Notes under the pieces: model-generated
The model's database searches: none
What the model was told of the DNA's origin: nothing
Seen by the model: the letters and a program-made list of their open reading frames with translations, nothing else
Made by a program: the position numbers and the translations under genes
Shown here: positions 19,629-25,406 of the stretch, one piece after another
Numbering within the stretch: position 1 is the first letter of the stretch
Layout: the number at the start of each line of letters is the position of its first letter
Origin: Anaerostipes hadrus ATCC 29173 = JCM 17467
Lineage (GTDB): Bacteria; Bacillota; Clostridia; Lachnospirales; Lachnospiraceae
Reading direction: 5' to 3'
Length of the DNA: 64,000 bases
NCBI RefSeq assembly: GCF_030296915.1
Contig: NZ_AP028031.1
Coordinates: forward strand, 2,616,001 to 2,680,000

Positions 19629-19886
19629 CTATAGACTTTAGGTATATGATAAAAAATAAATAAACGATCGAAAGAGCAGCATTAGAATTTTGCCACGTTT
19701 TTTACGGATTCGCAGCCGGCTTGGTGCGTTGTCTGAGCCTCAAAGAGTTTCTGTTTTGAATACCCTTGAAGGCGAGTTACGCAAGGAAAGCCGGCGAATC
19801 AGCGATCTGTAAAAAACGTGAGGAAAATTCTCTAGCTGCTCTTCCGATCGTTTATTTATTTTTTATCATATACTCAAAATCTACAG
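19629..19886. repeat. Long-inverted-repeat element, copy 1 (258 bp)
   Basis: Degenerate outer ends (CTATAGACTTTAGGTAT left; CTGTAGATTTTGAGTAT as the complement of the right) enclose arms that are perfectly complementary for 28 bp, then imperfectly for about 60 more. The centre (19706-19808) contains words shared with copy 2 at 25174: on the minus strand GCTGATTCGC, CCTTGCGTAACTCGC, GCTCAGACAACGCACCAA and GCTGCGAATC. An extra stretch of about 30 bases fills the tip. It lies 17 bases past the stop of the ABC transporter gene. No open frame of note is inside. Confidence 0.8.
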
Positions 19887-19902
19887 TTGGCCAATCACAA
19901 AT

Positions 19903-21792
19903 TTAAGATAATTCCAACTTACCAGTATATAATTGATAGTAGGTTCCTTTATTCTTAATAAGATCTTCATGATCTCCACGTTCAATGATCTTACCATGTT
20001 CAAGTACAATGATCGCATCACTATTTCGGATCGTAGATAGTCGATGGGCGATTACAAATACAGTTCTACCTTTCATCAGGTTATCCATTCCTCGCTGTAC
20101 AATGCTTTCTGTTCTTGTATCAATACTTGATGTTGCTTCATCTAAGATCAGTACTGGTGGGTTGGCTACGGCTGCTCTGGCGATGGATAGTAACTGTCTC
20201 TGTCCTTGAGATAATCCTTCTCCGTCTCCGCTGATCACGGTGTCGTAACCATCTGGAAGCATTTTGATGAACTGGTCTGCGTGTGCTAATTTGGCCGCTT
20301 CGTAGATCTGTTCGTCGGTTACCCCTAAATTTCCGTAGCGGATATTGTCTTTGATCGTTCCTGTAAACAGGTGTGTATCCTGTAATACAATTCCTAAGGA
20401 ACGTCTTAAGTCGTCTTTTTTGATCTTCTTGATGTTGATTCCATCGTAACGAATCTTACCATCCTGAATGTCATAGAAGCGGTTGATCAGGTTTGTGATC
20501 GTTGTTTTTCCGGCTCCTGTGGATCCTACAAATGCTAGCTTCTGTCCTGGTTTTGCGAACAGACTAATGTCATGAAGGATGGTTTTATCTTCGTTGTAGC
20601 CAAACGTTACATCTTCAAATCTTACATCTCCAGTTAATTCTGTATATGTTACAGACCCATCTGCAGAGTGTGGATGTTTCCATGCCCACATTCCTGTTCT
20701 TTCTTCACATTCGATAATGTTTCCATTTTCATCTTTCTTCGCATTTACTAATCTTACATATCCCTCATCTGTCTCAGGTTCTTCATCGATCAGGGCAAAG
20801 ATCCTTTCTGCACCTGCAAGTGCCATTACAATAGAGTTAAACTGCTGTGCGACCTGCATAAATGGCTGTGTGAAACTCTTTGTAAACTGAAGGTATGATG
20901 CCATGACACCTAATGTGATCCCTCCAATACCTTCAATAGCTAACACACCACCTAATACCGCTGTTAATACAAATTGAAGGTTTCCGATATTACCTACAAC
21001 TGGACCCATGATATTTGCATATTTGTTGGCATTTGCAGCACTTTCAAACAGAGATTCGTTTAACTTGTCAAATTCTTCTTCTGATTTACGTTCGTGGTTA
21101 AAGACTTTGACAACTCTCTGTCCATTCATTCTCTCTTCGATAAATCCTGTCACATCGGCTAATGATTTTTGCTGGCGGATAAAGTATTTTCCGCTGTTTC
21201 CGCCAATCGCTTTTGTCACCGTGATCATGATTCCGATAACAACAACTGCAAGAATCGTTAAAATCGGACTTAATACTAACATAGAAATAAATGTTACAAT
21301 GATCGTGAAAAATGACATCAATGCCTGAGGAATTGCCTGGCTGATCATCTGTCTTAATGTGTCCGTATCATTTGTGTATAAACTCATGATCGAACCATTT
21401 GTATTCTGGTCGAAATAACGGATCGGTAATGTCTGCATATGTTCAAACATATCGTCTCTGACACGTTTTAGGACTCCTTGTCCGATAAATACCATCATCC
21501 TTGTATAAATAAATGTTGCAATGACACCTGCTGCAAAGATGCATCCAAGGACGATCATTGCGTGGTAAAAATTTGTGAAATCTGGATTGCTCTGTCCAAC
21601 CAAAGGCAGGATGAAGTCATCGAGCATAAATTTCAATGATAAAGATACAGATACAGAAGCTGCTGCACTGATGAAAATGCAGACAAACACGAGAATAAAC
21701 TGTAATTTATAAGTATCTGTTACATATTTTAAAAGACGTTTTGCTGTCTTCGCCGTATTTTTGTTGATCGTCTTTTCTGGTCTTTTACTCAT
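19903..21792 (-). CDS. ABC exporter half-transporter, catalytically complete subunit
   Basis: This 629-residue type IV ABC exporter subunit has six membrane helices at about 30-330. The nucleotide-binding domain (about 390-629) has Walker A GSTGAGKTT, signature LSQGQRQLL, Walker B VLILDEATSSID with the catalytic Glu, and H-loop AHRLS. An unusual hydrophilic insert (about 338-385, rich in charged residues) joins the two domains. It overlaps the upstream ABC gene by 8 bases. With that partner it forms a heterodimer like LmrCD or BmrCD, which export drugs or lipids. Confidence 0.92.
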   Translation of the reverse strand: MSKRPEKTINKNTAKTAKRLLKYVTDTYKLQFILVFVCIFISAAASVSVSLSLKFMLDDFILPLVGQSNPDFTNFYHAMIVLGCIFAAGVIATFIYTRMMVFIGQGVLKRVRDDMFEHMQTLPIRYFDQNTNGSIMSLYTNDTDTLRQMISQAIPQALMSFFTIIVTFISMLVLSPILTILAVVVIGIMITVTKAIGGNSGKYFIRQQKSLADVTGFIEERMNGQRVVKVFNHERKSEEEFDKLNESLFESAANANKYANIMGPVVGNIGNLQFVLTAVLGGVLAIEGIGGITLGVMASYLQFTKSFTQPFMQVAQQFNSIVMALAGAERIFALIDEEPETDEGYVRLVNAKKDENGNIIECEERTGMWAWKHPHSADGSVTYTELTGDVRFEDVTFGYNEDKTILHDISLFAKPGQKLAFVGSTGAGKTTITNLINRFYDIQDGKIRYDGINIKKIKKDDLRRSLGIVLQDTHLFTGTIKDNIRYGNLGVTDEQIYEAAKLAHADQFIKMLPDGYDTVISGDGEGLSQGQRQLLSIARAAVANPPVLILDEATSSIDTRTESIVQRGMDNLMKGRTVFVIAHRLSTIRNSDAIIVLEHGKIIERGDHEDLIKNKGTYYQLYTGKLELS

Positions 21793-24196: not shown

Positions 24197-25150
24197 ATGA
24201 ATTCAGAACAAAATTTAACCCGTGAAGAAGCCATCGCGATCTTAAATACACCTGATGAACAATTAAATGAACTGATCGAACATGCCGGAGCACTTCGTAA
24301 AAAATATAAAGGGAACCATGTAAGCATTCATCTTTTAACAAACGCCAGAAGCGGAAACTGCTCCCAGAACTGTGCTTACTGCGCACAATCCTGTCGTTCC
24401 CATGCAGATATTGAAAAATATAAATGGGTCGATGATGAAAAATTATATGGAGATAACACATTTGTCCATGATCATAAACTTTCCCGTCATTGTATCGGAT
24501 TAAGCGGTATGAAATTCAGCGATGATGAGATTGAAGAACTTGCTTCTAAAATTCGTAAGATGAAAGAAGAGGGTACACATTTATGCTGCTCTATCGGATT
24601 TTTAACAAAGAAACAGGCCTTAATGTTAAAAGAAGCTGGATTAGACCGTATCAACCATAACTTAAATACAAGCCGTTCCAATTATCCAAATATCTGCACA
24701 ACACATACATACGAACAGCGTGTAAACAACATTCATATGTTACAGGACCTTGGATTTGAAATCTGCAGCGGTGGTATCATTGGTATGGGTGAGAGTAAGG
24801 AAGATGTTGTTGATATGTTATTGGATCTGAAAGAAATCAATCCAGAAGCACTTCCGATCAACTTCTTAATTCCGATCAAAGGAACACCTCTGCAGGATAA
24901 AGATACTTCAAATTTGACACCAGAATACTGCCTGAAAGTATTATGTCTGGCAAGATTACTGGTTCCAACATCTGATATCCGCTGTGCCGCTGGACGTGAA
25001 ATTTATTTTAAAGGAAGGGAAAAGGAATTATTGACCGTTGTAAATTCTATCTTTGCTTCAGGATATCTGACTGCAGATGGACAGGGAATTCAAGATACGA
25101 TCAAGACGATCACGGATGCTGGATTTACATGCGAAGTAGAATCTGATTAA
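24197..25150 (+). CDS. bioB: Biotin synthase
   Basis: The 317-residue radical SAM enzyme inserts sulfur into dethiobiotin to make biotin. The radical SAM cluster motif CxxxCxxC is C55-C59-C62 in GNCSQNCAYCAQS. Biotin-synthase hallmarks include NHNLNTS, the GGIIGMGE loop and AAGREIYF near the C terminus. GGAAGG precedes the ATG. No other bio genes are adjacent, so the strain either has the pathway elsewhere or salvages dethiobiotin. A BirA-like operator over the promoter supports the assignment. Confidence 0.92.
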   Translation: MNSEQNLTREEAIAILNTPDEQLNELIEHAGALRKKYKGNHVSIHLLTNARSGNCSQNCAYCAQSCRSHADIEKYKWVDDEKLYGDNTFVHDHKLSRHCIGLSGMKFSDDEIEELASKIRKMKEEGTHLCCSIGFLTKKQALMLKEAGLDRINHNLNTSRSNYPNICTTHTYEQRVNNIHMLQDLGFEICSGGIIGMGESKEDVVDMLLDLKEINPEALPINFLIPIKGTPLQDKDTSNLTPEYCLKVLCLARLLVPTSDIRCAAGREIYFKGREKELLTVVNSIFASGYLTADGQGIQDTIKTITDAGFTCEVESD

Positions 25151-25173
25151 TTTGTGATTGTTGGTTTGATTCA

Positions 25174-25406
25174 CTGTAGTCTTTCCGTATCTTAGAAAAA
25201 CGAAATAAAAGAATCGAAGATCCAGACCAGAAATTTTACTCGCCATTTTGACCGGTCGCTGATTCGCAAATTTTCCTTGCATAACTCGCTTCGCTCAGAC
25301 AATGCACCAAATTTGCTGCGAACCAGTCAAAATGACGGCAAAATTTCAATGGTTCTGGATCTTCGATTCTTTTATTTCGTTTTTCTAAGATACCTAAAGT
25401 TTACAG
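25174..25406. repeat. Long-inverted-repeat element, copy 2 (233 bp)
   Basis: Outer ends CTGTAGTCTTTCCGTAT and (complement of the right) CTGTAAACTTTAGGTAT resemble those of copy 1. From GTATCTT to CCAGA the arms are perfectly complementary for 40 bp, yet share no sequence with the arms of copy 1. The core (25253-25326) holds GCTGATTCGC, CCTTGCATAACTCGC, a TTCG tip, GCTCAGACAATGCACCAA and GCTGCGAACC. It begins 24 bases past bioB, in the same orientation relative to its upstream gene as copy 1. A short word TTTGTGATTG precedes both copies. Confidence 0.8.

Follow-up and report, generated by a model that had tools for sequence, protein, structure and literature searches.

Giant hairpins behind stop codons in Anaerostipes hadrus: conserved core loops and arms that are probably kept matched by copying at the DNA level

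INTRODUCTION

A REP unit is a short palindrome of some tens of nucleotides (nt). REP sequences and BIMEs are described as extragenic, species-specific palindromes that occur in many copies and alternate in orientation within mosaic composites, and nonautonomous spread has been proposed for them (PMC2817692). In integron attC sites, which are also palindromes, the bases left extrahelical when the strand folds are important (PMC3053210). Palindromes may also be shaped by events in the DNA itself. Template switching is described as yielding multi-base compensatory changes and loop inversions (PMC8794818), and coding palindromes of Nematomorpha are described as having arms that differ among species while remaining identical to each other (PMC6649704).

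In this study, we analyzed a window of 64,000 nt from Anaerostipes hadrus ATCC 29173 = JCM 17467 (contig NZ_AP028031.1, positions 2,616,001 to 2,680,000) and the family of giant hairpins to which two of its inverted repeats belong. The hairpins are mostly located behind stop codons, and their arms are likely kept matched by copying at the DNA level, with the two arms drifting together while the loops of the core are held. We found no description of these repeats in the titles and abstract beginnings of the open literature, a scope that lies mostly outside subscription papers.

RESULTS

Two hairpins with a common core in the window

The initial annotation reported two long inverted repeats sharing core words, and both are present at those places (Table 1). 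The core pattern had two matches in the window, compared with 0.00 expected from shuffling. The inverted-repeat search of the window placed the arms at 19629-19691 and 19824-19886 in copy 1 and at 25158-25226 and 25354-25422 in copy 2, giving arms of 63 to 69 nt with 127 to 132 nt in between, and the fold z scores of the two copies against shuffles were -18.2 and -14.7. Of the two perfect arms that had been annotated, the one of 40 nt was correct, while the one of 28 nt is really 29 nt at its longest exact match. The change of a core stem from CCGGC/GCCGG in one copy to AAATT/AATTT in the other was also found. On the other hand, TTTGTGATTG, which had been taken as host flank preceding the element, is really the conserved end of the element, beginning at the stop codon; other copies carry TTTGTAGTTG or a similar sequence at this position directly behind the stop codon. 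The hairpin unit also extends past the arms into a spacer tail, which in copy 2 contains the spacer motif.

Table 1. Parts of the hairpin units in the window
Feature	Window position	Strand	Remark
Copy 1 (lineage A), outer end and 5' arm	19824..19902	-	directly behind the stop codon of an ABC-transporter gene
Copy 1, core	19701..19809 (genome 2635701-2635809)	-	covariance model R1, 131.5 bits; also matched by R2
Copy 1, 3' arm	19629..19691	-	complementary at 87% (inverted repeat I2); T-rich on the transcript strand
Copy 1, inner end (GTGTGTATGG on the - strand) and spacer remnant	19507..19600	-	without second hairpin; limits by eye
Copy 2 (lineage B), outer end and 5' arm	25151..25226	+	directly behind the bioB stop codon
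Copy 2, core	25252..25330 (genome 2641252-2641330)	+	covariance model R1, 87.2 bits
Copy 2, 3' arm	25354..25422	+	complementary at 87% (inverted repeat I1)
Copy 2, inner end with spacer motif GTATGTTAAACGGTGTTAGTT at 25440-25460	25433..25471	+	outer limits by eye
Third composite, between two convergent genes	53799..54057	.	collapsed, core deleted

On its + side, the third composite retains part of a G-type outer end; on its - side is a collapsed F-lineage hairpin, in which the core is deleted and the arms (53909-53960 and 53987-54038) are separated by 26 nt. Another inverted repeat, with perfect 25-nt arms that are 5 nt apart (window 62174-62228), showed no relationship to the hairpins when compared by eye. 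The window also contains, next to each other at 14659-17868, two related frames of 529 and 528 amino acids that start in a similar way (YVDKTG ... RPRRFGKS) and that we take to encode AAA-ATPase/nuclease-like proteins.

Family size and species range

The sequence CTTGCRTAACTCGC occurred 14 times in the host genome with at most 1 mismatch, and the reversed control gave 0 occurrences. A covariance model built from these 14 sites (R1) found at least 49 hairpin cores in the 2.8-Mb genome, and a second model built from all R1 cores (R2) again found at least 49. The count of 49 is a lower bound, because the best 150 of the 692 to 878 first-look candidates per genome were scored. The exact core pattern had 32 matches, all 32 of them inside the 49 cores. 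The absence of further copies with the same core, which the initial annotation had named as grounds for refutation, did not hold: at least 47 more were found, with arms that differ between lineages. We refer to these units as X.

Using the covariance models, we found the core in 0 of 10 congeneric species among the candidates scored per genome and, under stricter filters, in 0 of 99 genomes from other genera of the family. Class-wide, single pattern matches in 6 of 390 other genomes were not confirmed by R1. Six 20-kb stretches from three congeners contained no giant hairpins built like these; they held four inverted repeats of at least 22 nt, the largest with 45-nt arms (82%, 6 nt between).

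With one composite as the query, there was no match in plasmids. The phage collection gave two partial matches, one of which was gene similarity only and the other a Y-hairpin composite (L241, MT839396.1; Y hairpins are described below). Compared with our genome, this composite has the same gene, with 526 of 526 gene-end bases matching, a nearly identical Y hairpin and a spacer that differs in part; the contig is probably another strain. MT839396.1 is listed as 'Bacteriophage sp.' from human faeces and looks like the chromosome of this species, its aspartokinase end being identical to that of our genome. In viral contigs, R2 matched 0 of 100 loci picked by two core patterns (at least 80 by the loose pattern and 20 by the second), and the spacer motif had 0 matches. 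We read the hairpin family as BIME-like and restricted to one species.

Stems covary without an excess of wobble pairs

The copies fall by eye into nine arm lineages (A, A2, B, C, D, F, G, G2 and H) around one common core, and a comparison of arm composition splits off two further arm types. Arms of different lineages are for the most part unrelated or mosaic; A and A2, for example, agree only in the outer half. The annotated lack of relationship between the two window arms thus holds for separate lineages, but copies of one lineage have nearly identical arms.

In the core stems (46 distinct rows, 19 pairs), 859 of 865 cells were paired (99.3%), 4 being G-U, and 6 were unpaired. Both sides had changed in 248 cells, compared with 73 in shuffles, and one side only in 3. 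When the partners were shifted by 1 to 3 columns, pairing fell to 28 to 37%. Two of the five covariation measures were no higher than in shuffles: the number of pairs altered on both sides (14, compared with 12.9; attained by 132 of 500 shuffles) and the further pair types (30, compared with 35.6; attained by 499 of 500). The majority base reached 92% in 31 internal-loop columns, hand-chosen without the apical loop, and 71% in 38 stem columns, while all 67 well-filled unpaired columns averaged 79%.

We then scored changes in the arms of 41 of the 49 copies against the lineage consensus rather than a dated tree, leaving out the X-Y chimera (2606017), copy 28675, which has no 3' arm, the odd B copy 254055 and lineages C, D and G2. 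There were 47 mirrored events, 27 transitions and 20 transversions, and 63 unmirrored cells, 18 of them wobble, 25 A-C and 20 other. Isolated mismatches over all 49 copies amounted to 27 G-T, 34 A-C and 47 other, against 3796 Watson-Crick pairs, in a tally that counts lineage-fixed mismatches many times.

The initial annotation had also considered a structured RNA under pairing selection. The sense transcript would fold at the 3' end of the gene, selection for RNA pairing would produce the covariation, and the loops would serve for protein binding or indicate where processing occurs. The fixed orientation behind genes, the conservation of internal loops beside freely varying stems and the very stable folds are all as this explanation expects, but the substitutions are not. 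Selection for RNA pairing should favor G-U over A-C on the folding strand, and since there was no wobble excess among single-arm mismatches, neither strand supports it; G-U pairs were also rare in the core. Transversions cannot pass through G-U, so their share of the mirrored events weighs against it as well. A known structured RNA was not found: the window had no Rfam 15 match at the gathering score, and four loci gave just 2 weak microRNA matches below that score. Together with the flipped and loop-erased copies described below, these results make a structured RNA unlikely, although the conserved loops may have some role in RNA.

Traces of probable copying between arms

Several copies deviate in ways that involve whole blocks of sequence. 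In the copy at 433657-433733, the complement of the 5' arm of the same copy, including a private base of that arm, has replaced the loop of the 3' arm, while the loop is retained in the five other copies of lineage H. In the copy at 2461600-2461705, the loop is gone within a 71-nt perfect arm and the interior is flipped relative to the ends. The inner motif is accordingly on the 5' side in this copy; it is on the 3' side in 43 of the 49 copies and missing from 5. A block of three changes is present in one arm of copy 1022879 and in both arms of copy 526887. Hairpins are collapsed or missing at three loci (L027, L098 and L099) and at window 53909-54038. Measured against the lineage consensus, the copies show the multi-base mirrored changes and inverted loops of palindromes that are maintained by template switching. 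The erased-loop, flipped-core and collapsed-arm copies point to arm-to-arm copying of DNA rather than to selection for RNA pairing.

Placement behind genes and composite structure

With open frames of at least 75 codons, 42 of the 49 X cores follow a same-strand stop codon at a distance of 36 to 129 nt, compared with 5 of 49 in the opposite orientation; with frames of at least 100 codons the numbers are 40 and 2, and the stop-codon assignments of copies 806228, 201123, 433657 and 274680 are weak. This placement supports the earlier proposal of a 3'-end element. Six of the remaining seven units face an anchored partner, and the last one is the flipped copy, which is placed by its ends at the stop codon of a convergent gene. 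At 8 of the 42 stops the sequence is TTTTAA, which is a word from the end of the element itself; there, the upstream gene seems to take its stop codon from the element.

The units occur singly or as facing pairs around a spacer (X-X, X-Y and Y-Y). The spacer motif was found at 43 places in the genome (21 forward and 22 reverse; control, 0) and had one match in each of two congeners, with three mismatches, the same as the controls there. The Y hairpins, which occupy the other half of many composites, have a different core and behave like X. The Y core word occurs at 20 places (94044, 101602, 1031579, 2383297 and 16 others, L272 to L291), one of which is the complementary half of a neighboring hairpin. 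Y copy 2383297 has different arms: it agrees with a typical copy at 87 of 112 nt around the core, compared with 16 of 45 nt in the outer arm. Among the 18 Y units with an assignable frame, 14 are 70 to 114 nt behind a stop codon. At genome position 2605963-2606124, the left half of a Y unit and the right half of an X unit are joined at GAATGATC.

One G-lineage hairpin core (L305, genome 241500-244800) contains an IS110-family element at about 658-2575 of this locus, with a transposase frame at 692-1888 (PF01548 and PF02371) and a non-coding part in which one stretch is repeated. Relatives of IS110 reportedly choose their targets by a guide RNA, so this hairpin core may be the target of the IS110-family element.

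Sites without the element and a predicted terminator role

The empty-site comparison that had been suggested showed that the element is absent behind both window genes in the nearest species, the nearest named ortholog being from Anaerostipes sp. MSJ-23. After the ortholog of the copy 1 gene (93% identical protein) there is an ordinary terminator, and the core is absent. Behind bioB of that species, the site orthologous to that of copy 2, there is likewise no core; the terminator scan was empty there, though an inverted repeat, ACCCATGGAA/TTCCATGGGT, is visible. It is likely that the element has taken over the terminator position.

All 11 arm types have an A-rich 5' arm (A, 42 to 57%; T, 16 to 31%), so the 3' arm of the transcript is U-rich. 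The terminator scan, which sees loops of 3 to 8 nt only, called neither window unit. Judging from arm composition and placement, we infer that a unit would serve as terminator of the preceding gene and that facing pairs would serve both directions.

Search for a mobilizing system

Y1 transposases had seven matches in the genome; the core was absent from all seven loci, and the genes are unlinked to the hairpins. Membership in the REP/RAYT system was rejected, with no rayt gene flanked by two inverted copies and none of the seven Y1 loci containing the core. No target duplication was seen by eye, with empty sites alignable up to the stop codon only; no exact excision was found, and the transposase search, which covered Y1, revealed no mobilizer. 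The X units are probably nonautonomous mobile elements.

A further explanation, which we consider quite unlikely, is that the folded single DNA strand is a substrate similar to attC, with its unpaired bases read by a recombinase and its arms kept complementary, without G-T, by selection for DNA folding. It would account for conserved unpaired and variable paired bases, for G-T being as rare as A-C and for the position of the units behind reading frames. However, the units are spread over 2.8 Mb without a cassette array, the search for Y1 transposases linked no recombinase to them, and the traces of block copying need no such enzyme. That the hairpins are just ordinary repeats in decay, left from old insertions that recombination has mixed and with nothing acting on their arms, is very improbable. 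Decay could leave mosaic composites and truncations as well as a chimera and collapsed copies, but it would separate the two arms, yet their changes are mirrored and the stems covary between lineages; the placement at stop codons is also too regular.

DISCUSSION

The identity of this family resides in the core loops, and the arms evolve in concert, most likely through DNA copying between them. One arm would be copied from the other in DNA, so that the arm pair drifts together and the shape survives. Template switching and slippage at hairpin DNA could then produce the mirrored blocks, the overwritten loop, the flipped core, the collapsed hairpins and the X-Y chimera. Template switching alone would erase the internal loops; since nearly all copies keep them, selection must also act. 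That the core loops are kept while the arms drift suggests a partner that reads them, and the conserved loops could be the recognition site of a putative mobilizer by which the units would spread as nonautonomous elements. Each unit might also act as the terminator of its upstream gene, through its A-rich 5' arm and U-rich 3' arm. Among the earlier proposals, the mobile palindrome that rebuilds its arms is the closest to this interpretation: the rebuilding is supported by the mirrored changes and copying traces, and the mobility is the part that we infer.

A bolder version, which we put forward tentatively and hold to be rather doubtful, is that of a mobile element defined by its unpaired bases alone. 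An enzyme would read the loops of the folded strand and place the hairpin at gene ends, and copying would rewrite the arms, so that the element would escape sequence homology and bring a replacement terminator with it.

Covariation in stems is commonly read as proof that an RNA is functional. The hairpins described here are a natural family that combines near-complete covariation with the marks of DNA copying, and they could be used to test how far covariation alone misleads. With dozens of palindromes in one genetic background, they offer material for measuring arm copying, collapse and inversion. They are also an example of repeats that have settled at gene ends, where they possibly serve as terminators.

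Compared with known systems, the family resembles REP/BIME sequences in having many extragenic copies in one species (at least 49 in its own genome, 0 of 10 congeners and 0 of 99 genomes of other genera) and in the alternating orientation of units within composites, seen here as facing pairs. The X units differ from REP units in being about 10 times longer, taking the usual REP length, and in having a core with several internal loops and lineage-specific arms. Integron attC sites are similar in that unpaired bases matter there and are conserved in the X core, but the X units are scattered over the chromosome without a tandem cassette array, are longer and have another core. MITEs are likewise short, non-coding and present in many copies with imperfectly matching outer ends, but the arms of X units are not conserved, and neither a parent transposase (Y1 search) nor a target duplication (by eye) was found. 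Intrinsic (Rho-independent) terminators occupy the same place behind the gene, with an A-rich 5' side and a T-rich 3' side, whereas the hairpins here are on a 200-nt scale with conserved internal loops, and their terminator role is predicted. Finally, the template-switched stems of PMC8794818 and PMC6649704 are alike in their multi-base compensatory changes, their inverted loops and their arms that vary yet match. Those stems belong to single genes or mitochondrial genes, whereas the hairpins described here are a bacterial repeat dispersed through one genome, in which a conserved core is combined with nine lineages of arms.
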